IMG/VR virus record: IMGVR_UViG_3300047550_004348
Span: 1-42,872 of that record
DNA: 42,872 nucleotides
Direction: 5' to 3' (one strand)
DNA from: a virus
Part shown: piece after piece, positions 2,311 to 36,200 of the stretch
Position numbering within the stretch: the first letter of the stretch is position 1
How the letters are laid out: each line of letters starts with the position of its first letter
Made by a program: the position numbers and the translations under genes
Notes under the pieces: generated by a model
The model's input: only the letters and a program-made list of their open reading frames with translations
Database searches by the model: none
Told to the model about the DNA's origin: nothing

Positions 2311-3066
2311 ATGGCAAGAAGAAATAGGAAAGAAGACCATCCAATTGGTGTTGGAATGACTGCAAGGCAAATGAAGCGCAAGAAACCAATTAGTTCTGAT
2401 TTGATGAGAGATATTGAACCTCTTACAGAAAATCAAACACGACTTTATCAAGCATACGAAAAAGGGCAGCATATTGTTGCTTATGGATGTGCTGGAACAG
2501 GTAAAACTTTTATTACCTTGTATAATGCTCTTCAAGATGTACTTGATGAGAGAAGCCCTTACGAAAAAATATACATTGTAAGGTCTCTTGTTGCCACTCG
2601 TGAAATTGGTTTTCTTCCTGGAGACCATGAAGATAAGTCTTCACTTTACCAAATCCCGTACAAGAATATGGTAAAGTATATGTTTACCCCACAAGATGAA
2701 GCGGCTGCTGAAATGCTTTATGGTAATCTCAAAACTCAAGGAACGATTAGTTTTTGGAGCACTTCTTTTATTCGCGGAACTACTTTAGATAAAAGTATTA
2801 TCATCGTTGATGAATTTCAAAACTTGAACTTTCACGAACTTGATAGTATAATTACTCGTGTAGGTGAAAATAGTAAGATTATGTTCTGTGGTGATGCCAC
2901 TCAATCTGATCTTATCAAAACGAATGAAAAGAACGGAATCGTTGATTTTATGAAAATTCTTCGTATGATGCCTTCAATTGATATTATTGAATTTGGAGTT
3001 GACGATATTGTTCGTTCTGGATTTGTAAAGGAATATATTCTTGCTAAAATGGAAGTTGGTGTATGA
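2311..3066 (+). CDS. phoH: PhoH-like P-loop ATPase
   Basis: A 251-residue PhoH family ATPase. Walker A is G59-CAGTGK-T66 and Walker B is IIIVDE at residues 163-168. Other family marks are IYIVRSLVATREIGFLPGD (residues 87-105, with one substitution pattern typical of phages) and IMFCGDATQSDL. PhoH is found in most marine myoviruses; it is often linked to phosphate stress but its role in infection is not settled, and an RNA or DNA helicase/nuclease role has been proposed. The end overlaps the next start by 4 nt, placing it at the head of the replication block. Confidence 0.95.
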   Translation: MARRNRKEDHPIGVGMTARQMKRKKPISSDLMRDIEPLTENQTRLYQAYEKGQHIVAYGCAGTGKTFITLYNALQDVLDERSPYEKIYIVRSLVATREIGFLPGDHEDKSSLYQIPYKNMVKYMFTPQDEAAAEMLYGNLKTQGTISFWSTSFIRGTTLDKSIIIVDEFQNLNFHELDSIITRVGENSKIMFCGDATQSDLIKTNEKNGIVDFMKILRMMPSIDIIEFGVDDIVRSGFVKEYILAKMEVGV

Positions 3067-3743
3067 GTTTTGTTCATCATAATTTTTTAGGTGATCTTGA
3101 ATTAGAAAAAGACGATACAAAACAATTTAGATTGTATCGTCTTCCAAATAACCAATGGGTGCCTTCAATTACTTCGGTTACTTCATTCTATAATCGTCAA
3201 ATTTTCATTGATTGGAAAAAGCGTGTAGGACTTGAAGAAGCAAATCGGATTACTAAAAAGGCAACAGCAAGAGGAACGGATTTTCACCAAGTTTGTCAAG
3301 ATTATCTTGAAAACAAAGAACTTATCTGGGAAAGTTATCAACCTCTGACAAAGATTATGTTTCATCACGCGAAACCATATCTTGATAAGATAAATAATAT
3401 TCACGCGATTGAAAGAACTTTATACTCTGAATATTATGGACTTGCGGGAAGAGTTGACTGTATTGCAGAATACGAAGGAGAATTAGCAGTCATTGACTTT
3501 AAAACTTCAGAAAAAATTAAACCTGAAGAATGGATTGAAAATTATTTTGTTCAGGAAATGTTTTATGCTGCTGCTTATTATGAGCGGACTGGACAAATCG
3601 TTAAAAAACTCATCACATTAATGGTTACTCCAACTGGCGAAGTCAAGGTGTTTGACAAAAGAAACAAAGGAGATTATATTAAGTTATTAGTTCGCTACGT
3701 TAAAGAATTTGTACATCACAATATTAGGTCAGATGGAGAATGA
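3063..3743 (+). CDS. PD-(D/E)XK exonuclease, RecB/MGME1-like
   Basis: A 226-residue nuclease. The active-site pattern is clear: RGTDFH at residues 70-75, the acidic motif GRVDCIAEYEGEL at 129-141, and VIDFKTS at 143-149 giving D145-x-K147. A conserved Gln/Tyr helix (QEMFYAAAYY) follows, as in Cas4/RecB-type nucleases. It should cut DNA ends using divalent metal, probably in recombination or host DNA breakdown. It lies between phoH and gp33, a common cyanophage order. The 3' end overlaps gp33 by 11 nt. Confidence 0.9.
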   Translation: MSFVHHNFLGDLELEKDDTKQFRLYRLPNNQWVPSITSVTSFYNRQIFIDWKKRVGLEEANRITKKATARGTDFHQVCQDYLENKELIWESYQPLTKIMFHHAKPYLDKINNIHAIERTLYSEYYGLAGRVDCIAEYEGELAVIDFKTSEKIKPEEWIENYFVQEMFYAAAYYERTGQIVKKLITLMVTPTGEVKVFDKRNKGDYIKLLVRYVKEFVHHNIRSDGE

Positions 3744-7950: not shown

Positions 7951-8346
7951 TTATTTATTTAGACGGAATTTTCCATATTGTAATGAGATTAATTCATCTA
8001 ACTCATTATATTTAACGACATGAAGTTTTCCTGCAACTTCTTCCCAAGTATATTGTCTTGATTTTCTCCAATGAAAGTTAATTCCACGAAATCCCCATTT
8101 TTCTATTGATGTGCAAGCAATTAATGGATGTTGGTCATATTCAAGTCCAGGAGTTTTTGCATTGTAAATGAATGTATAAAATTTTCCCACTTCAGGATAT
8201 ACTACTTCTTCTTTTAAAACATCTATAATGACTAACATTATATCTTCTGGATCTGTCAGTTCTTGTTTATTAACTCTTTTTAAGAGTTCTTTAATTCTTG
8301 GTGTTGTTGATTTTTTTTCTATATATTGACCGAAACCTTCTGCCAT
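7951..8346 (-). CDS. Conserved cyanophage hypothetical, probable virion or tail-completion protein
   Basis: A 131-residue protein. The central segment GKFYTFIYNAKTPGLEYDQHPLI with FRGINFHW is a pattern I have seen in phage proteins of unknown function (aromatic, then K-T-P, then D-x-x-P-L). It lies between gp48 and gp4 in a cluster of head- and tail-completion genes, so a structural or assembly role is likely by context only. Its ATG overlaps the stop of the homing endonuclease by 1 nt (TGATG), so its translation may depend on that inserted gene. Confidence 0.7.
   Translation of the reverse strand: MAEGFGQYIEKKSTTPRIKELLKRVNKQELTDPEDIMLVIIDVLKEEVVYPEVGKFYTFIYNAKTPGLEYDQHPLIACTSIEKWGFRGINFHWRKSRQYTWEEVAGKLHVVKYNELDELISLQYGKFRLNK
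7956..7962 (-). promoter_or_regulatory. Late promoter-like element for gp48-gp53
   Basis: CTAAATA read on the minus strand, within the last codons of the upstream gene and about 80 nt before the gp48 start. The same heptamer precedes several other genes here. Confidence 0.35.
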
Positions 8347-8996
8347 CAGTTAATCCTTTTAACAAATTTTCCACCTTGCTTAAGAATATAATATCTAGAA
8401 AGTCCTGTGTTTTTTATTGCTTCAGACATAGATTTGTATATTTTATTGTTATATTCAACTGGTTTAGAAGCATATGATTGATTTTTCATAAATTCACTAT
8501 GATTTTTACGTTTTTCTATATCAGTTTTATTTCTTTCTACCATTTTCTTCAAGTTTTTTTCATAATAAGATATTGGTCTTGGATTATTTTTTAATTTTTC
8601 TTTCCATGTATTTGATATTTTTTGTCTTACTTCATTCGGAACTGTTCTTCCTTTTAATCTTTTTTTATTTGTAGCACCTATTTTTTCTTTAACCTCTGGT
8701 CTTTTTGTTGGGCTAGCATCGCCATACATTTTAGGAGGAGCATTACCCCCATCAGCAATATTCATTAAAATACCAGTTCTATTACATTTTTTACCAAACA
8801 CAGCAATCATATAGATTTCGTGCTTAAATGCTTCTTCTTCAGTTAGGTTTTGTTTGAGTTTGATTATTCTACTTTTATCTGTTGGAACTTTACAATTTTT
8901 ACCTCTTCCATCATTCCATCTATTTCCTTTGCCCTTTCCGATATAATATGGTTTTCCATCTTTTCTCAAGTAAGCATATGTATAATAATTATTCAT
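8346..8996 (-). CDS. GIY-YIG homing endonuclease (Seg-like) with NUMOD DNA-binding motifs
   Basis: A 216-residue protein. The N-terminal nuclease domain is YTYAYLRKDGKPYYIGKGKG at residues 5-24 (GIY represented by YAY, YIG intact), with Arg in GNRW, Glu in the EIYMIAVFG helix and NIADGGN as the Asn motif. Two NUMOD3-type helices follow (SPTKRPEVKEKIG and VPNEVRQKISNTWKEKL), then a NUMOD1/IENR1-type C-terminus (KPVEYNNKIYKSMSEAIKNT). Such freestanding enzymes cut phage relatives lacking the gene and spread by repair. It is inserted between gp4 and the next gene with almost no spare DNA. All catalytic positions look intact. Confidence 0.92.
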   Translation of the reverse strand: MNNYYTYAYLRKDGKPYYIGKGKGNRWNDGRGKNCKVPTDKSRIIKLKQNLTEEEAFKHEIYMIAVFGKKCNRTGILMNIADGGNAPPKMYGDASPTKRPEVKEKIGATNKKRLKGRTVPNEVRQKISNTWKEKLKNNPRPISYYEKNLKKMVERNKTDIEKRKNHSEFMKNQSYASKPVEYNNKIYKSMSEAIKNTGLSRYYILKQGGKFVKRIN

Positions 8997-28600: not shown

Positions 28601-31158
28601 GTGGTGAAATAGCTTTTGCGAGAGCCGTAGATGATGCCTTTACATATGCGATAGATGTATATGGAAATACTGCAGAAAACGCAAGATTGAGATTTATTGA
28701 TGTTCAAAGTAATGCAGAAAGAGCAACTATTGATAGATCGGGAAATTTCATTGTAGGTTCTGGATCGTCAACAGGAACAGCATCACAACCACTTCAGGTA
28801 ACTGGTGGTGCTTATGTTTCTGGCAACATTGGAATTGGTGTTTTAAATCCATCAGAAAAACTTCAGGTTGCCGGTAACGTGGCACCTGATCAAAATGGAA
28901 CCAGAGACTTAGGAACTCCAAGTTTAAAATGGAACAAAATTTACACCAATGAACTTGTAGGAACCATAACAGGTACCATCTCAAGTGTAAGTATTACTAA
29001 TGATTCTTCAACAAATGCAATCAGATTTATTAATTTTGCATCTACGGTTAGTGGATCCAGTAGCATTTATGGTGACGATTTATTAGTATGGAATCCAAAC
29101 ACAAATAGTTTAGGAATAGGAACAACAAATCCATCAATACCATTTGGTAATGTTGGTGTTCATATTAACAATGCTGGATTGAATATTCAATCAGTAGCTC
29201 CAATTATATTCTTACAAGAAATTGATAATTCAAACAATTACTATAATTTAGTTGTTGATGGTGGTATTTTTGGTGTTAGATACAATAATAATTTCCCTGG
29301 ACCATTACAAGTAAATTCAAGTTCAGTTTTAATAGGTTCTGCAACATCAACAGGAACAGCATCACAACCACTTCAAGTCACTGGTGGCGCTTATGTTTCT
29401 GATAATGTTGGAATTGGAGTCACAAATCCATCAGAAAAACTTCAGGTTGCCGGTAATGTGGCACCAGATCAAAATGGAACCAGAGACTTAGGAACATCTA
29501 TTCTTAAATGGAACACAGTTTATGCCAATACATTTAATGGGCAATTTATAGGAAATGCCGATACTGCTTCTAAATTAGCAACACCAAGAATTATTGCTGC
29601 AACTGATGATATTTCTTGGTCGGTTTCTTTTGATGGATCCTCAAATGTATCTTCTGCGGCAACTTTATCAAACACCGGAGTAATCGCAGGAACTTATGGT
29701 TCTTCAACACAGGTTGGTGTGGTAACCGTAGATGCAAAGGGTAGAATTACTTCAGCATCTAATGTTTCAATTGCCTTCACTAATGCAACCGTAGCCAGAG
29801 CAGGATATGCGGACAGTGCAGGTATAGCAACTAATCTTAGAGGTGGTACTGCATATCAAATTCCATATCAATCTGCAGTAAACACAACTGCATTTATAGC
29901 AAATGGTACTGTTACTGGACAATTACTTCAATATAATAGTTCGGCAGCACCATCTTGGGTAAACCCTTCTGGTTTAACTGTATCTAGAGCTGGATATGCA
30001 GACACTGCAGGTATAGCAACTAATCTTAGAGGTGGTTCTCCTGGTTCAATTCCTTATCAATCTTCTTCCAATGTAACAACTTTTCTAAATGATCCTAATG
30101 TAAATGGAGCTATTTTAACCTGGAATGATTCAAGTTCACAACCGTCTTGGACTTCTGCGACTAATTTCACTGCTGGATTTGCATCATATGCTACTAAAGC
30201 AGGATTAGCAACTGATGTAGAACTTAATGGATCAGGACAACTTCTTTATCAACCCGGAAATAACAATACCGAATTGTTATCATTCGGTTCTGCTGGACAA
30301 ATACTTCAATCTAATGGTACAGGAGCAGCTCCTAGTTGGGTTAATTTAAGTGGATTAACTGCTGGATTTGCATCATATGCTACTAAAGCAGGATTAGCAA
30401 CTGATGTAGAACTTAATGGATCAGGACAACTTCTTTATCAACCCGGAAATAACAATACCGAATTGTTATCATTCGGTTCTGCTGGACAAATACTTCGTTC
30501 TAATGGTACGGGAGCAGCTCCTAGTTGGATAACTTTAGGATCTTCTGTAGGTGCCGCAATTAGTGGACTTACAATTAGGGATGAGGGAACTATAACTCCT
30601 TCGGGTGGTGTGGGTGTTATTACCACTATTAATTTTGTTGGTTCTGGGATTACGGTTGTTGGTAGTTCTTCTGGTATTGCTACTGTAACATTTCTTGGAG
30701 ATCAAATACTAGAAGGCACAATTAAATCTACTGACACTACAACACAAACCTCTTTATATCCAGTGATGGTGAGTACTGTTGGAGTTGCGACAACTGCTTG
30801 GACATCTTCAACAAAATTATCTTTTAATGCAGTTACAGGACAAATTAATGCAGTTGATTTTAACTCTACATCAGATCAAACATTGAAAACCAATATTAAA
30901 CCTATTTTATCTCCTCTTGAAAAGGTATCACAAATTAACGGAGTGACATTTAATTGGATTGAAGGTAATATACCTTCAATAGGAGTTATTGCTCAACAAG
31001 TCGAAAAGGTATTTCCAGAACTTGTAACTACAACAAGTGAATATAAATCTGTTAGATATAATGGATTGATTGGATTATTAATAGAAGCAATTAAGGAACA
31101 GCAAATGCAAATAGAGGACCTTAAATTGCAACTTGAAGACTTAAAATCTAACACTTGA
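25624..31158 (+). CDS. Long tail fibre with C-terminal Peptidase_S74 chaperone
   Basis: An 1844-residue protein. Most of it is repeated beta units ending in IG-x-x-NP-x-x-LxVxG (for example VGIGTINPTQELHLHGDFRI, IGVLNPSEKLQVAGNVAP) and SIYGD-type repeats. The C-terminal 95 residues form an intramolecular chaperone: STSDQTLKTNIKPI with S1750 and K1755 (Ser plus five to Lys, the autocleavage dyad), ISPIG-like GVIAQQVEKVFPELV, then a coiled coil IEAIKEQQMQIEDLKLQLED. This family trimerises fibres and cuts itself off. The stop codon overlaps the -35 box of the promoter that follows. Confidence 0.9.
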   Translation: MAKYLSGRSKRTPQSALSDERYRYLSVGDAEPNFGDPIFPGDFPPFGQQYQIVSVEGYPGERYWVPIGGGVIPGSISVFDEGNLVGGSNSTTEINFVGAAITVIGISGPPPGTGVTVTVFAPGNNSEILFNTFNDFSTSPKLKFDNSTGSLIAGDRIIVGVGGTVITTTGVGSVGIGTINPTQELHLHGDFRITGTIYDYLNSPGSPTQLIAKNNFGGITWVDQGTVRSAAGGTVGNVQYHNSVGLVDGASNFVFDEFNNRIGIGSTIPTVLFDVLGYSKFTGQTQIDNLNVTGIATLKNLGVSGLTTTRDLQVYESTLLNRLKVSGISTFDSQVIINNLNVTGVGTFDNIKLDTNTVSTNVGNLIIDSSGGTTQINDIVYINDYTQSINSNTGALVVEGGVGIGSQLNVDGAVKLATLGGITTTGGDLYVAGNLYVNNDIFYDELFVRNGYFTGIVSTKDLLVTGVATIATLGVSGLTTTRTLRVTGISTFDDFIDANGGAYIDNIQIGITDNNEIDTSSGNLTIDSAGGLTTIDDRLFVTGISTFNANTVFNANVTLGNNVGGDTVSFGSSVNTNIIPQSTDTYDLGQSDSLRWRTIYAQTFSGKFIGNADTASQIATATTTGISSYFLTFVDSNNSPASYETLYTDSGITYTPSNDLLTVGKLVVTGISTFENTSTFNGITTFTNNVFIGNSNTDKVSFAATVDSNIIPSGIRDLGSITNRWDKFYVNEIVGTVTGTISSVSITNDSSTNAIRFISFASTVSGSSSIYGDTNLTFNPSNDTVSIGGSLGIGNANPGTRLDVTGNVRLSGSVPEIELNTGGPRFRVPSSNTLTVHTGGGLSSGTNEVIRINATGVGIETSTPRYKLHVIGDTNITGLTSLGGNLVPTGNGTQDIGLPDRKWNKFYVNELVGTITGTISSVSITNDTSTAGNPIRFISFASTFSGSSSVYGDSLLTFNPTSNSLGIGVANPTAPLDVAGRVFLRRNDTLFEGGEIAFARAVDDAFTYAIDVYGNTAENARLRFIDVQSNAERATIDRSGNFIVGSGSSTGTASQPLQVTGGAYVSGNIGIGVLNPSEKLQVAGNVAPDQNGTRDLGTPSLKWNKIYTNELVGTITGTISSVSITNDSSTNAIRFINFASTVSGSSSIYGDDLLVWNPNTNSLGIGTTNPSIPFGNVGVHINNAGLNIQSVAPIIFLQEIDNSNNYYNLVVDGGIFGVRYNNNFPGPLQVNSSSVLIGSATSTGTASQPLQVTGGAYVSDNVGIGVTNPSEKLQVAGNVAPDQNGTRDLGTSILKWNTVYANTFNGQFIGNADTASKLATPRIIAATDDISWSVSFDGSSNVSSAATLSNTGVIAGTYGSSTQVGVVTVDAKGRITSASNVSIAFTNATVARAGYADSAGIATNLRGGTAYQIPYQSAVNTTAFIANGTVTGQLLQYNSSAAPSWVNPSGLTVSRAGYADTAGIATNLRGGSPGSIPYQSSSNVTTFLNDPNVNGAILTWNDSSSQPSWTSATNFTAGFASYATKAGLATDVELNGSGQLLYQPGNNNTELLSFGSAGQILQSNGTGAAPSWVNLSGLTAGFASYATKAGLATDVELNGSGQLLYQPGNNNTELLSFGSAGQILRSNGTGAAPSWITLGSSVGAAISGLTIRDEGTITPSGGVGVITTINFVGSGITVVGSSSGIATVTFLGDQILEGTIKSTDTTTQTSLYPVMVSTVGVATTAWTSSTKLSFNAVTGQINAVDFNSTSDQTLKTNIKPILSPLEKVSQINGVTFNWIEGNIPSIGVIAQQVEKVFPELVTTTSEYKSVRYNGLIGLLIEAIKEQQMQIEDLKLQLEDLKSNT
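30169..30496 (+). repeat. Perfect 139-bp direct repeat in the S74 fibre gene
   Basis: Bases 30169-30307 equal 30358-30496 (offset 189 bp, 63 codons). Similarity continues with a few changes beyond, so the full unit is one in-frame 63-residue module (ASYATKAGLATDVELNGSG to AAPSW). Recent in-frame duplication of a fibre module. Confidence 0.92.
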
Positions 31159-31183
31159 CAATCCCCTAAGAACCTGCTATGAT
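31155..31183 (+). promoter_or_regulatory. Consensus sigma-70 promoter of the small-gene/tRNA island
   Basis: TTGACA (31155-31160), a 17-bp spacer and TATGAT (31178-31183) with an extended -10 TG (31175-31176). It is the best host-type promoter in the window. The -35 overlaps the stop codon of the fibre gene. Predicted start near 31190, 20 nt before the next ATG. Confidence 0.9.
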
Positions 31184-31209
31184 ACTCAGGTAATCACGAA
31201 ACGAACTGA

Positions 31210-31392
31210 ATGAAAGATGAGTACCTCACACGATGCGTCGTTGACCCACTGAAAAGAACGGTATATCTTTATTCTAGTGAGGGGTCAGAAAAAGAAGTGT
31301 CCTGTGAGACCGTTGATGAGTTTATGAACGTGCTAAACTTTGTTCGTGCTACATTGGATGAGGATACACTCTCATACACAAATCCACTTTAA
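31210..31392 (+). CDS. Hypothetical 60-residue early protein
   Basis: First gene of the island, about 20 nt after the predicted transcription start, so a short leader and no strong ribosome site. The sequence is DEYLTRCVVDPLKRTVYLYS then EKEVSCETVDEFMNVLNFVR: two short strands and a helix. I do not recognise a family. The strong host-like promoter suggests early expression. Confidence 0.65.
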   Translation: MKDEYLTRCVVDPLKRTVYLYSSEGSEKEVSCETVDEFMNVLNFVRATLDEDTLSYTNPL

Positions 31393-31455
31393 AATCCATT
31401 TTTGGTCGAAAAAATTTCCGGTAAATTTTCTTACGCGATACTTTTTTAAAATTGT

Positions 31456-31662
31456 ATGAATTTATACAAAATTAACTATAAAAACCTTAAAGAGGAGATT
31501 GTAAAGACAACTCCTCAAAACGTTCAGGAAGCAAATGAGGGTTTGTTTTATGCTAAAATGAATCTTCCTGAAGCAGCAAAACACTGTGGAATGTCACAAA
31601 AAGAAATGCGCTTGACATTCTTTGAGTACCTCAAGTATAATCCTATCACGTACAAAGCGTGA
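31456..31662 (+). CDS. Small HTH-like conserved cyanophage protein
   Basis: A 68-residue protein. The C-terminal half NLPEAAKHCGMSQKEMRLTF looks like a helix-turn-helix (A-A-x-x-C-G-M-S with two flanking helices), followed by FEYLKYNP. Possibly a small DNA-binding regulator. There is no Shine-Dalgarno before the ATG, and an AT-rich hairpin (31411-31417 with 31423-31429) lies in its leader. It ends 7 nt before the tRNA-Leu, and so may share a transcript with it. Confidence 0.6.
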   Translation: MNLYKINYKNLKEEIVKTTPQNVQEANEGLFYAKMNLPEAAKHCGMSQKEMRLTFFEYLKYNPITYKA

Positions 31663-31669
31663 TTTTTAT

Positions 31670-32014
31670 GCGAGTATGGTGGAATCGGTAGACACACCAG
31701 ACTTATTGTAAAATTGAGCCTCATTTGGGAAACCTTATGAGTGTAATTCCTCAAATTCGGTGAAACCTTTAAAATGGCAATACCGAGCGAAGTTGCAAGA
31801 CAGTTGGAAAGACAACGGCTACCCAATGTGCTTCTAGAGAGGGTTGGAATTATCTAGAAAATGCAAAACGTGTAGAGACTAGACGGGGAACACCTAAACC
31901 GAAAGGTATGGTGAAGGTATAGTCCAGACCACAAACCGAAAGGGTAGTGAAAACTATAGTGGTACGAAAATCTGTTGGGCATTGCCCGTGGGAGTTCAAG
32001 TCTCCCTACTCGCA
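31670..32014 (+). tRNA. tRNA-Leu(UAA), split by a group I intron
   Basis: 5' exon 31670-31704 and 3' exon 31967-32014. Joined, they make a type II tRNA: 7-bp acceptor GCGAGTA/TACTCGC (31670-31676 with 32007-32013), D-arm with GTG/CAC, anticodon loop CUUAAAA giving UAA, long variable arm GGGC-ATT-GCCC, T-arm GGGAG-TTCAAGT-CTCCC, discriminator A at 32014. CCA is not encoded. One mismatch (C27-U43) sits at the top of the anticodon stem. It reads UUA and UUG, helpful for an AT-rich phage in a host with higher GC. It is followed by a hairpin (32017-32022 with 32030-32035). Confidence 0.94.
31705..31966 (+). ncRNA. Group I intron in tRNA-Leu (cyanobacterial/plastid trnL type)
   Basis: A 262-nt intron between U34 and A35 of the anticodon, ending in the expected G (31966). 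Conserved pieces in order: TTGAGCC with P1 wobble U31704-G31716; P2 hairpin (GAGCCTCAT to ATGAGTG); Q/P pairing P4 TCGGT 31757-31761 with ACCGA 31782-31786; a TTCTAGA/TCTAGAA hairpin (about 31832-31859); R element TGTAGAGACTAGACGG with P7 GACTA 31877-31881 pairing TAGTC 31920-31924; P8 CACC/GGTG with a GAAA loop (about 31891-31914). Same site and layout as cyanobacterial trnL-UAA introns. No ORF inside, so no homing endonuclease of its own. Confidence 0.93.
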
Positions 32015-32033
32015 CTAGAGAATTTAATCTTCT

Positions 32034-32040
32034 CTAAATA
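32034..32040 (+). promoter_or_regulatory. Late promoter-like CTAAATA
   Basis: CTAAATA, 21 nt before the ATG at 32062, directly after the hairpin that follows tRNA-Leu. Similar to other late-type elements here. Confidence 0.35.
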
Positions 32041-32061
32041 ATCAAAAGTAGGAAATGTCCT

Positions 32062-32331
32062 ATGAAGTATCGTATTGATGCCAGATATGTTTGGTACAAT
32101 CGCGGAACTCAATTAGTTCTAATGTACTTTATAAATCAAATTCCTTTCACTTTTGATGATGTTCCTGAGAGTTATATTTACGATCCGGAAATTTTAGAAA
32201 TCGCAGATAACGAACTTCGGTTTGAACCAGAGGATTTATTTCAATCATCATACTATTTGATACTTGAAGAATGTCATCCTCTTATGTTTGAACTGGAACT
32301 GGAAAATCCAGAAATGTTACCTGCTGATTAA
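32062..32331 (+). CDS. Hypothetical 89-residue protein
   Basis: Lies between the two tRNA genes; ribosome site AGGAAA upstream is weak. Sequence: RIDARYVWYNRGTQLVLMYF, then an acidic part (VPESYIYDPEILEIADNELR, YLILEECHPLMFELELENPE). Acidic, alpha/beta in appearance, no signal peptide. Not recognised. Its stop is one base before tRNA-Thr. Confidence 0.6.
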   Translation: MKYRIDARYVWYNRGTQLVLMYFINQIPFTFDDVPESYIYDPEILEIADNELRFEPEDLFQSSYYLILEECHPLMFELELENPEMLPAD

Positions 32332-32332
32332 T

Positions 32333-32403
32333 GCCTCTAAAGCATTGTGGTGATGCACCGCTCTTGTAAAGCGGAGACGACAGTTCAATTCTGTCTAGGG
32401 GCT
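32333..32403 (+). tRNA. tRNA-Thr(UGU)
   Basis: Acceptor GCCTCTA/TAGGGGC (one T-G pair), D-stem GCAT/ATGC, anticodon arm CCGCT-CTTGTAA-AGCGG with anticodon UGU, T-arm GACAG-TTCAATT-CTGTC, discriminator T. All stems pair. CCA not encoded. It reads ACA, a codon common in these fibre genes. Confidence 0.93.
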
Positions 32404-32421
32404 CTGAGTTTTAAACTCCAA

Positions 32422-32580
32422 ATGTCACTTATTTCCCAAAAAGACCGTGAAATGGTCATTGAAGCACTTGAATATTATGTTCAGAAACTTAAAGAAGATA
32501 ACTGCACTCCTGCCTCTATCACTGCCTTCCAAACCCTCCTTAACTGGATTGAACTGGAGCATTTCAAAAATGAAAATTAA
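32422..32580 (+). CDS. Hypothetical 52-residue helical protein
   Basis: Starts at ATG 32422, 18 nt after tRNA-Thr; the longer in-frame version would run through the tRNA. The sequence SLISQKDREMVIEALEYYVQ looks like a single long helix with a C-terminal second helix (ITAFQTLLNWIELEHF). It overlaps the next gene by 11 nt. Unknown function. Confidence 0.6.
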   Translation: MSLISQKDREMVIEALEYYVQKLKEDNCTPASITAFQTLLNWIELEHFKNEN

Positions 32581-32743
32581 TCTATGGTACTGTGATTCTA
32601 TGAAGCAATGGCGATGGATTCTTACCGATGATTCACGACCAGTTATTAAACAAGAATCAGGACAACAACCATTTCTCCGTGATGCTATGAATGATGTAGT
32701 AAATACGGTAGAATATATGTTGGAGTGTAAGCAACTTGAATGA
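32570..32743 (+). CDS. Hypothetical 57-residue protein
   Basis: ATG at 32570 inside the end of the previous gene; the longer frame upstream would overlap the 52-residue gene heavily. Begins KINLWYCDSMKQWRWILTDD, aromatic-rich, then EYMLECKQLE. Ends in ATGA with the next gene. Unknown function; conserved-looking overlap pattern supports it. Confidence 0.55.
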   Translation: MKINLWYCDSMKQWRWILTDDSRPVIKQESGQQPFLRDAMNDVVNTVEYMLECKQLE

Positions 32744-33009
32744 ACAACAAGGATTCTTTAAATTCTCAAGACTCTGCATTCATCCATAAACTCAACAGAG
32801 CGAGTATAATATCACTTCTTGGTTCGTTTCAAAAGCGATTAGACAATTGTGAAAAAATACTACAGTCAAAGCAATCCTCTTATGCGCTGATAATGACTTT
32901 CATTGCGGCACAATTTATCGCGCTTATAATTTTAAATATTATGATCTTACAGATTCAAAGAAAGATTTCTATTATTCAAATATCACCAAGCATTCATGAG
33001 GTAAGGTAA
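32740..33009 (+). CDS. Small single-pass membrane protein
   Basis: An 89-residue protein overlapping the previous gene by 4 nt. Residues about 48-69 (ALIMTFIAAQFIALIILNIM) form one clear transmembrane helix, after a polar N-terminal helix with two basic stretches (KRLDNCEKILQSKQ). It could be a holin-like, antiholin or superinfection-exclusion protein, but nothing decides this. Last protein gene of the island. Confidence 0.6.
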   Translation: MNNKDSLNSQDSAFIHKLNRASIISLLGSFQKRLDNCEKILQSKQSSYALIMTFIAAQFIALIILNIMILQIQRKISIIQISPSIHEVR

Positions 33010-33071
33010 GTGAAGGGAGAAGTAGAAAGCATAGATATTTGATGGTATTTGATAAACAACTTCAAAAAAGG

Positions 33072-33101
33072 TTGATTTGGAAAGAAGAAAAGGGATATAA
33101 T
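33072..33101 (+). promoter_or_regulatory. Sigma-70-type promoter, possible small-RNA promoter
   Basis: TTGATT (33072-33077), an 18-bp spacer and TATAAT (33096-33101). A terminator follows 43 nt later, so the transcript would be about 60 nt. Confidence 0.6.
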
Positions 33102-33143
33102 AACTCTGGATATACTTAACCAAATCCGTTCAGTGTGCTTCAC

Positions 33144-33170
33144 AACTTCCTTATGGAGGTTTTGTTGTTT
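33144..33170 (+). terminator. Rho-independent terminator of the island
   Basis: Stem AACTTCC/GGAGGTT (33144-33150 with 33155-33161, one T-G pair), loop TTAT, then a T-rich tail TTGTTGTTT. Closes the small-gene/tRNA island before the late promoter of the next fibre gene. Confidence 0.75.
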
Positions 33171-33178
33171 GATAAATA
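33171..33178 (+). promoter_or_regulatory. Late promoter for the 2080-residue fibre protein
   Basis: GATAAATA, 30 nt before the ATG at 33209 and right after the terminator tail. Confidence 0.6.
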
Positions 33179-33208
33179 ACTCATAACGGAACTATAAGTA
33201 TTAATAAA

Positions 33209-36200
33209 ATGGGATTAAGTCGCCTAGATAATTTCCTAAAATCAGTAAGAGGAACAATTATTTACGTTGATCCAAATAGTCTAGACTCTACTGATAGTAT
33301 TGAAAATACTGGAAATAGCTTAACAAGACCATTTAAAACAATTCAACGTGCTTTAATTGAAGCAGCAAGATTTTCTTATCAGCGTGGACAAAAAAATGAT
33401 AGATTTGGAAAAACTTCAATTTTATTATACCCTGGAGATCATTTTATAGATAATCGCCCTGGATATATTCCTACTGGAAATGGTTTGTTTTCGAAAAGAA
33501 GTGGACAAACAGGAGTTTCTGATTTAACTCAATGGGATTTAAGTAGTAATTTTGATTTAACAACCCCAAATAATGAACTTTATAAGTTAAATTCGGTTTA
33601 TGGTGGTGTTATTGTTCCTAGAGGAACGTCAATTGTAGGACTTGATCTCCGTAAAACAAAAATTCGTCCATTGTATGTACCAGATCCTAGAAATAATAAT
33701 ATTGAAAGGTCTTGTATTTTTAGAACAACTGGCGCTTGTTATTTTTGGCAATTTACAATTTTAGACGCAGATCCAAATGGAAATTGCTACAAAAATTACA
33801 ATCCAGACCTTTTTGTTCCTAATTTTTCTCACCATAAATTATCTGGATTTGAATATGCTGATGGAATAAATGGTGTTTATATTAATGATGCATTTTTAAA
33901 TCAAAATCTTGGTACAGGAATTGATACTTCAAGAACTGACTTGGATATGTATTATGAGAAGGTTGGTATTGTTTACGGAGCATCATCAGGTAGAGAAATT
34001 CCTAATGATTATGATGGAGGAACAACAACAGTTGATATTCAACCTATCATAGACGAATATCGTATTGTTGGACCAAAAGGTGCTTCTGTAGGAATTACTA
34101 GTATTCGTTCAGGTAATGGAACTGTTTCTTCAAGCACCATAACAGTGGATCTTGTTGAATCTATTGAAGGATTAAGTGTTGATAGTCCTATTGAGATTAG
34201 TGGAGTTAATGCTTCTGGATATGATGGGCAGTATGTGATCGCTTCGGTTCCAACTGATACGCAAATTACCTATAGGGTTCAAAATCCACCATCAGACCCA
34301 CTTCCAGGTGTCACTGGATCAACTTTAAGTCTTGTTGTTGATACCGTAACTTCAGCATCTCCTTATATTTTTAATATTTCTTTGCGTTCAGTTTATGGAA
34401 TGTGTGGATTGCTTGCGGATGGTGATAAAGCAACAGGATTTAAATCAATGGTTGTTGCACAATATACAGGAATTGGATTACAAAAAGATGATCAGGCTTT
34501 TGTGAAGTATGATAGTGTTTCTGGAACTTACCAACAGTTTCCATCGGTATTAAATCTTAGTACAGATTCAAGATCAAGGTTTAAGCCAGAATATGAAAAT
34601 TTTCATATAAAAGCAACTAATGATGCATTTTTGCAATTAGTGTCCGTATTTGCAATTGGATATGCTCAACATTTTGTCACTGAGAATGGTGGAGATATTG
34701 CATTAAATAACTCAAACTCAAATTTTGGGGCAAAAGCATTAGTATCTTCGGGATTTAAAAAAGATGCATTTTCTCAGGATGACTATGGATATATCACTCA
34801 TATTATTCCCCCTAAAGAAATTAATCCAGAAGAAATTAGTGTTGAGTTTAATTTAATTGATGTAGGAATTACCACACAAATATCAGCCGGATCTGCTACA
34901 ACATCTCGCCTTTATTTGTATAATGAGACGAATGAGGATTCTCCACCTAGAGTGGTTATTGATGGATATAATGTTGGTGCAAAGCAGAATGAACAGATTA
35001 ATATTCAAGTTGTTAAAAGTGGGATAGTTTCTACATATTCTTCAAGAGTTGTAATGCCAGATGGGCCTTATAGATCTACTCAGTCTTCTTCTGAAAAATC
35101 ATTTACTGTTGCAAGAAGTGTTGAAGGAATTAATAGTATCAATTCCAACGTTTTTACTTTAACTGAAGCACATTCATTAATTAATGGAGAGTCTATTCGT
35201 ATAATTTCAGATAATGGAAATCTTCCTGATGGATTGCAACCAAATCAAATTTATTATGCGTCAACTGTAGGAATTACTACGAATAATCAAATTTATGTAT
35301 CAAAAACTCTAAATGATGCAATTAATGGAAATTCTATTACAATAAACAATAAAGGTGGGGTATTAAAAGTTGTAAGTAAAGTTTCTGATAAGAATGCTGG
35401 AGATATTGGACACCCAGTTCAGTGGGATACTTTTGGATATTGGTATATTGGTGTATCTACTAGTAATAATGGAATTTATAATGCTATTAAATCATTTGGA
35501 ACTTCTGGACTTGGGAAAGCAACATCAAGATCATACGTAACTAGGAAGTCTGATTCTAGAAGTTTGATTGATACTCTTTATAGAGTTCGTTATGTTCTTT
35601 CAAAAGACGCTCCGAGCTCAGCAAGACCACCTGTTGATGGATTTATTCTTCAGGAATCTAATAATATTATTGGTTCTGGATCGGCAGAAATTTCTCAGAT
35701 TTATAATACTTCTGGGTCTATTTCATCAATTGAATTAAGAAATCCAAAATTTATTGCAAATGCATCTTGGTCTTCTAATTTAGTTACGATTAGATCTGAA
35801 CTACCCCATAATTTGAGAATTGGTGATCAAGTTGAAATTGTAAATGTTTCTCCAACTGAATATAATGGAATTTATACTGTCACTTCATTGCCAAGTGCAA
35901 AAGAATTTACTTACCAATTAACTGTTAATCCGGGAACATTTGGGAGTGATACTTCAAATAGAAATGAAGATCTTCCATATTTTAAAAGGAAAAAATATAC
36001 AAAGACATATCAAGTTTATAGAACTCAAGAAATACAATCATTTATTAAGGGTGTTCAGGATGGTGTCTATTATTTGACATTAATTAATCATTCAAATAGT
36101 CCAACAGTTACTCCATTCTCTGATCAATCATTTGCTCAACCAGTGGAGAACTTGTATCCACAATCAAATAATGATAATCCAAATTCAAATCCTGAAGCAT

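Follow-up and report, generated by a model that had tools for sequence, protein, structure and literature searches.

The window, the whole 42,872-nucleotide stretch of DNA analysed here, belongs to a T4-like cyanophage, and in its tRNA-Leu(UAA) gene a group I intron of 262 nt separates U34 from A35. We think it likely that this gene makes a functional tRNA, that its intron is self-splicing, and that the family to which the intron belongs spreads among phage tRNA genes, with an HNH endonuclease as the likely vehicle. The exons, the intron and the helices assigned to it are as follows:

31670–31704, plus strand: 5′ exon of tRNA-Leu(UAA), last letters GACTT (U34); ARAGORN intron mode
31705–31966, plus strand: group I intron, 262 nt, last letter G; Rfam RF00028, ARAGORN and covariance model R1
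31720–31741, plus strand: P2 hairpin with a GAAA loop; changes on both sides at 4 pairs among relatives
31747–31752, plus strand: 5′ strand of P3, partner 31885–31890; columns 43/186 read UA in 24, CG in 22 and UG in 1 of 47 introns
31757–31786, plus strand: P4 (31757–31761 with 31782–31786) and P5; final P4 pair UA in 35 and GC in 12 of 47 introns
31793–31866, plus strand: P6a and an extra domain; 10 pattern-matched contigs, one of which (L018) overlaps the window
31877–31881, plus strand: 5′ strand of P7, GACUA, partner UAGUC at 31920–31924; invariant in 47 introns
31891–31913, plus strand: P8 hairpin; changes on both sides at 3 of 7 pairs
31928–31963, plus strand: P9 and P9a hairpins; changes on both sides at 4 of 4 P9a pairs, five P9 pairs invariant
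31967–32015, plus strand: 3′ exon of tRNA-Leu(UAA), first letters AAAATC (A35); ARAGORN

ARAGORN in intron mode reports a tRNA-Leu(taa) at 31670–32015 with an intact cloverleaf and a 262-nt intron at gactt|aaaat, which is the gene and junction that an earlier note, made from the letters of this DNA, had obtained by removing 262 nt between U34 and A35. The default mode of the same program misses the split gene. The Rfam model Intron_gpI (RF00028) matches 31695–31948 along all 253 of its positions at 61.6 bits (E 2.3e-13), above its gathering score of 50 bits, and our own covariance model of the family, R1, gives the intron 222 bits, the window being part of its training set. Both searches that the note had proposed, the tRNA finder in intron mode and the Rfam model, therefore recover the intron. 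The splice-site letters are those that a group I intron is expected to have: a T ends the 5′ exon and a G ends the intron, the latter as already noted.

A search of the phage collection with the window gene returned 280 records, of which 255 are named Synechococcus, Cyanophage or Prochlorococcus phage and none reaches 80% query coverage. Among the best 60 of the 280, the match in cyanophage rows is confined to the exons and the intron is absent; within the same 60, the window exons resemble intronless tRNA-Leu genes of T4-like cyanophages at up to 96.5% identity (95.5% for S-TIM5). UUA is the commonest leucine codon in 23 selected ORFs of the window (334 of 817), so a tRNA-Leu(UAA) is plausibly useful to the phage.

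The assignment of the virus draws on protein families encoded in the window (single-strand DNA-binding protein, baseplate wedge, tail tube cap and tail fibre, together with the gp59 helicase loader, PhoH and Thy1) and on two stretches whose relatives, at low identity, are mostly Synechococcus and Prochlorococcus phages and marine viruses. Positions 29803–33505 are also found on an 83-kb virus contig (L018/G694) that is 100% identical over the 3703 nt compared, so it is not an independent case. That contig bears a psbA-type gene and a plastocyanin-type gene, which support a photosynthetic host. Elsewhere in the window, positions 354–452 match the glutamine riboswitch (glnA leader, 37.6 bits).

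The predicted fold comprises 46 pairs from P2 to P9, which we drew by hand, using the window and its relatives. Across 47 distinct phage introns 99.8% of 2162 cells pair, compared with 94.2% after shuffling and 29–40% when partners are slid, a control against which hand drawing favours the fold. The 47-row alignment excludes distant phage introns and all introns with a P6 insert other than that of the window, and the P6a extra domain is accordingly missing from 46 of the 47. Changes on both sides occur at 16 of the 46 pairs and fill 147 cells, where shuffling gives a mean of 38.8; none of 500 shuffles, which ignore kinship, is as high. The number of further pair types (27 against 26.6 when shuffled) is the sole one of five measures without an excess.

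The P3, P4, P6, P7 and P8 helices, including the P3/P7 pseudoknot, are paired in 98.6–100% of cells, and the P4, P7 and P8 pairings that the earlier note had read by eye are among them. Its P4 pair, TCGGT/ACCGA, is real: 12 of the 47 introns replace the last U-A by G-C in a compensatory change, and the remaining P4 pairs and P5 do not vary. P7 and the outer P9 pairs are invariant and so contribute no covariation evidence. Near-total pairing and 16 pairs changed on both sides together argue that the group I fold of these phage tRNA introns is under selection, as had been suspected from the P4 pair of the window.

The window intron has many relatives. A pattern of the tRNA-Leu exon plus intron start found 91 viral contig stretches, of which 77 have the intron (10 of them clipped or missed by the junction pattern), the other 14 being chance matches to intronless tRNAs. 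A pattern of the intron core gave 75 viral matches, 24 of them new, and added as intron hosts a class I UAA tRNA with a short variable loop, a tRNA-Thr(UGU) (L222), a tRNA-Arg(UCU) (L234) and more tRNA-Leu genes. Class I UAA tRNAs with an intron are found in L215, L216, L218–L221, L224–L228, L230–L233, L235 and L237; phage S-CREM1 has a full-length intronless relative of this tRNA, annotated as tRNA-Leu. The exact exon 1 of the window occurs at no fewer than 43 intron-bearing and at least 88 intronless loci in a pool that was partly selected for introns, and one exon scan gave 31 to 43 intron-bearing cases among at least 119 stretches.

R1, built from introns of the family, matches 41 of 45 chosen sources (the exceptions being L236, L492, L511 and L529) and none of 70 control loci, made up of 57 contigs with an intronless tRNA-Leu and 13 with the HNH gene and no intron. 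Rfam misses the introns of L002, L003, L004, L238 and L239 at E 0.01 and those of L222, L234, L424 and L425 at its gathering score; these are supported by R1 plus ARAGORN or, for L004, L424 and L425, by R1.

Related introns also occur in known phages. The tRNA-Leu(UAA) genes of the isolated Agrobacterium phage Atu_ph07 (L238:1386–1747) and of two uncultured huge phages (735 kb and 595 kb) contain one, and the word "intron" is absent from the main texts of the Atu_ph07 paper and of a paper on huge phages that probably includes the two large records. The Atu_ph07 record has 714 features, equal to the 714 ORFs of its paper, and no tRNA is annotated in the stretch examined; its tRNAs thus seem wholly unannotated, with no sign that annotation overlooked the intron. 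In Pelagibacter phage HTVC120P and phage KT997847, related introns lie between two coding regions that are both annotated as capsid protein; the capsid region of the uncultured phage KT997847 holds two group I introns (L240:1446–1626 and 2155–2335).

The distribution of the family over tRNA types suggests that the introns move among phage tRNA genes. The introns of 17 class I UAA tRNAs are 94–98.5% identical to their nearest class II Leu introns, and the joined exons of the same pairs are 59–66% identical. On the best intron tree (83 rows, 48 distinct, with most inner branches weak) the tRNA type switches six times, and well-supported branches force three of these switches; for the P6 insert, present in seven rows, there are four switches, one of them forced. 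The P6 domain of the window also recurs in the very different introns of L424 and L425, which by eye seem to lie in tRNA-Leu(CAA) genes. The P6 stems of these two look compensated by eye, and single-sequence folding of the L424 P6 slice did not reproduce the stem. A remnant of a homing endonuclease gene is an unlikely source of this insert of 60-odd nt, because the same insert recurs in these two distant introns.

Of 82 intron-bearing loci, 23 have an HNH endonuclease gene at most 500 nt downstream, and of 104 intronless loci none does (Fisher 9e-10), a contrast that is partly circular, since all 12 sequences of the HNH profile (11 downstream genes and the intronic HNH of the 595-kb phage) come from intron-bearing loci; 12 of the 23 matches are non-seeds. 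Counting flank clusters in place of loci gives 13 of 56 and 0 of 84 (2.6e-6), and counting loci with the same exon pattern gives 14 of 52 and 0 of 104 (5.6e-8). The gene starts 23–70 nt past the nominal tRNA end, so that these loci pair an ORF-less intron with an adjoining free-standing endonuclease gene, an arrangement not found in the window. Within 1500 nt upstream, this HNH gene is present at 2 of 81 intron-bearing and 1 of 107 intronless loci. Pfam places HNH or HNH_3 in seven of eight of these proteins or their relatives, three of them above the cut-off; L221 and the intronic relatives L493 and L496 have no Pfam HNH match.

Other neighbouring genes were considered as possible intron partners. 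Neither a second HNH type (5 of 82 intron-bearing and 6 of 104 intronless loci) nor the 89-aa gene (MKYRID..., no Pfam match) that lies downstream of tRNA-Leu in the window at 32062–32331 (50 of 82 and 61 of 104) is associated with the intron; two further genes are found at 4 of 82 and 1 of 104 loci and at 4 of 82 and 3 of 104 loci. The window also encodes, at 8346–8996 on the minus strand and 23 kb from the intron, a homing endonuclease of PHROG 314, which looks GIY-YIG by eye and has no Pfam match.

A search with the intronic HNH of the 595-kb phage alone, which avoids the circularity of the profile, found 64 viral loci in 46 clusters, with several contigs shared with the earlier set. The nearest tRNA within 700 nt of the HNH gene is a tRNA-Leu in 34 of 43 clusters, compared with 70 of 226 tRNAs in the same stretches (binomial 1e-10), and three arrangements are seen at tRNA-Leu(UAA):

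(i) The HNH gene stands beside a tRNA-Leu(UAA) that has no group I intron in 14 clusters, whose representatives give no match to the intron model. Two of them have short inserts of another kind. In L511 (1703–1773), 71 nt split a class I tRNA-Leu(UAA) at U34|A35; by eye the insert resembles another tRNA-like element ending in CCA, and ARAGORN calls no tRNA in it. In L522 (2289–2437, also L523–L525), the HNH-adjacent tRNA-Leu(UAA) contains an insert of 62 nt that has a terminal inverted repeat and is not matched by the group I model.

(ii) The HNH gene stands beside an intron-bearing tRNA-Leu(UAA) in five clusters and in L519, which ARAGORN miscalls.

(iii) The HNH gene lies inside the intron of a tRNA-Leu(UAA) in five clusters, in L510 (also miscalled by ARAGORN) and in the query itself (L003). 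In L003 it is placed in P6; in L493, L495, L496, L502, L504 and L510 it follows exon 1 and precedes the core. L510 is the one case in which the reading frame is not open across the match. The L003 protein is 59% identical to the free-standing enzyme of L221 and 49% identical to that of L216.

In the mechanism we propose, the anticodon stem and a short P1, with the splice-site U opposite a guide G, would hold the 5′ site, and a guanosine bound at P7 would cut after U34. The freed U34 would then attack behind the intron-terminal G, joining the exons into a tRNA that reads UUA. We infer this splicing, and the function of the tRNA, from the anatomy of the gene. The intron family would spread by insertion into the anticodon loop of phage tRNA genes, and the likely motor would be a small HNH endonuclease that has intronless tRNA-Leu genes as its target and is encoded as a separate neighbour ("collaborative homing"), its gene sometimes being captured within the intron. 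The three arrangements of gene and intron fit such collaborative homing. One observation is awkward for it: in 7 of the 14 clusters of arrangement (i), for example L488, L498 and L503, the usual GACTTAAAATC site is kept, and the enzyme should then cut its own genome. As neither the window nor the 83-kb contig has an HNH gene of the intron-linked family, the intron here has probably been passively inherited or mobilised by another phage.

The evidence on origin and mobility also bears on three other explanations. The first is an intron taken from the tRNA-Leu(UAA) gene of the host and thus simply the cyanobacterial or plastid intron carried by a phage; the earlier note, which had proposed an intron phylogeny, had connected the intron with that lineage and supposed that phages could carry it between hosts. 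The gene, the U34|A35 site and a TTGAGCC guide are indeed all shared with the cyanobacterial introns. Proteobacterial tRNA-Leu(taa) genes have introns at U34|A35 as well (11 of 30 loci are called as such, and more are recognised by eye), so the site is not specific to the cyanobacterial and plastid lineage. The site named in the note stands; for the lineage the phylogeny gives a divided answer. Our origin tree (154 of 183 distinct introns after removal of near-copies, 187 columns, P1 omitted) covers phage and bacterial introns, those from genomes being shorter than 400 nt. On it, 73 of the 75 rows counted as cyanobacterial trnL, three of which (L125, L126 and L175) are from MAGs that bear the names of other phyla, form a clade of their own with 100/100 support and without any phage row. 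The 37 phage rows show five label changes, two of them forced, and several long branches. An AU test nevertheless allows cyanophage and cyanobacterial Leu introns as one clade (p 0.589, the constrained tree being 7.9 lnL better), and it does not reject cyanophage with proteobacterial Leu introns either (p 0.142); a closer kinship to the proteobacterial introns is therefore not established. Best identities of the cyanophage introns are 66–71% to the cyanobacterial Leu clade, below the 71–78% to proteobacterial tRNA-Leu introns at the same site, and 72–76% to other cyanobacterial rows; the proteobacterial rows have an advantage here, having been picked for their likeness to the phage intron, and the cyanobacterial rows were picked mainly by exon pattern, among the matches listed. 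R1 scores overlap (up to 133.9 bits for some cyanobacterial trnL introns, 115.7–165.5 bits for proteobacterial ones). BLAST with a phage intron matches 35 of 292 cyanobacterial genomes at E 0.01; ARAGORN assigns the tRNAs of the five best matches to Met(cat) or Leu(caa), not to Leu(taa). In the phylum to which a Nevskia record belongs, 36 of 398 genomes match at E 0.001. Since the AU test rejects neither grouping, our claim is limited to this: the phage intron is no recent copy of any sampled cyanobacterial intron, and we regard a host origin as unlikely. Part of the phage intron is also matched by 1271 plasmid records, 6 of the 10 listed being enterobacterial (~75% over ~97 nt); in one enterobacterial plasmid stretch (L303) ARAGORN calls a split tRNA whose anticodon is TTA, possibly a tRNA-Leu read with a shift.

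That the intron is instead a dead relic in a tRNA pseudogene seems to us highly improbable. The cyanophage records with an intronless version of the same tRNA would agree with it, but the cloverleaf is intact, the introns have compensatory changes across 47 sequences with P7 and the splice-site letters invariant, and the codon read by the tRNA is the commonest one for leucine. A better contender, though still a doubtful one, is that the intron is immobile in cyanophages, that the HNH gene travels with tRNA clusters and has nothing to do with the intron, and that the spread over tRNA types reflects ordinary phage recombination. Phage tRNA clusters are prone to recombination and rich in endonuclease genes. 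The HNH gene is absent within 500 nt downstream of 59 of the 82 intron-bearing loci, it is found nowhere on 11 of 12 intron-bearing contigs checked (58–175 kb and possibly incomplete; the twelfth is a known carrier), and the lack of association of the second HNH type points the same way. Against a mere passenger stand the absence of a downstream HNH gene from all 104 intronless loci and the presence of homologous HNH genes inside introns of the same tRNA at two places, in P6 and, six times, before the core. We prefer a splicing, mobile intron family, for which the separate HNH gene is the likely motor.

Group I introns, tRNA introns and collaborative homing are each known; what is new is their meeting in phage tRNAs and the three gene and intron states. 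The cyanobacterial trnL(UAA) introns share the tRNA and the U34|A35 site with the window intron and are similar in length and layout, but they form a separate clade, and their 3′ ends, mostly ATG in the copies examined, differ from the GGTA plus one base plus G of cyanophages. The phage family, unlike them, is also found in other tRNAs and is partly accompanied by HNH genes. Proteobacterial and Bradyrhizobium plasmid tRNA-Leu(UAA) introns (L273, L274 and L302) have the same site and a 3′ end of GGTAAG; among cellular sequences they match the phage intron best, at 83% over 125 nt and at 77% over positions 4–168 of the query, but they are cellular genes and were picked by similarity to the phage intron. 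A bacterial (cyanobacterial) group I intron that bears an endonuclease of another family is known from the anticodon region of another tRNA, and among phage protein genes td and nrdB have group I introns. Phage introns in protein genes resemble the tRNA family in that they self-splice (a prediction for the introns described here) and occur with or without endonuclease genes. In the Microcoleus phage My-WqHQDG (OR578706), the deposited tRNA-Arg is annotated as 286 nt, and we find in it an intron of 211–213 nt, in another tRNA and distant from the window intron (99 bits with R1).

The closest parallel for the arrangement is cyanophage S-PM2, in which a psbA group I intron is accompanied by the free-standing F-CphI and collaborative homing was proposed (PMC6083498); the process is treated in a review (PMC2988022). 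The S-PM2 system, like the phage tRNA family, has a separate endonuclease gene beside an intron in a cyanophage, but it involves a protein gene and an Endo VII-type enzyme, whereas here a tRNA gene is combined with an HNH enzyme and intron-borne forms exist at the same site too. The 83-kb contig itself contains an arrangement much like that of S-PM2: in L547 (G694:C1:31000–36000), a psbA-type gene (Photo_RC) is split by three Rfam group I introns (1060–1323, 1653–1927 and 2254–2488), a 222-aa ORF without a Pfam match lies at 582–1250, and an ORF of the Recombination endonuclease VII family at 2646–3068 immediately follows the psbA-type gene. In the open-licence literature (few subscription journals, no bioRxiv) our searches turned up no phage tRNA described as holding a group I intron.

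The family has consequences for how phage tRNA genes are viewed. According to a 2014 review, the phage introns observed to date were all in protein-coding genes despite the many phage tRNAs (PMC3984707); the present family indicates that, contrary to that view, tRNA genes too admit group I introns. A tRNA finder in its default mode overlooks phage tRNA genes that are split in this way, and phage tRNA supply could hinge on RNA splicing. The HNH and intron states show stages by which mobile introns may form, and three arrangements at one site make the collaborative-homing origin of mobile introns directly testable. We are close to evenly divided on a wider reading, in which tRNA-Leu(UAA) would be a hot spot that preserves the steps towards a mobile intron, both the family and its P6 domain would jump, and phages would serve as an exchange pool for the anticodon-loop introns of bacteria. 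Jumps between unlike tRNAs and exchange of the P6 domain, if true, would make phages such a pool and would offer a phage route for the scattered anticodon-loop introns found across bacteria.
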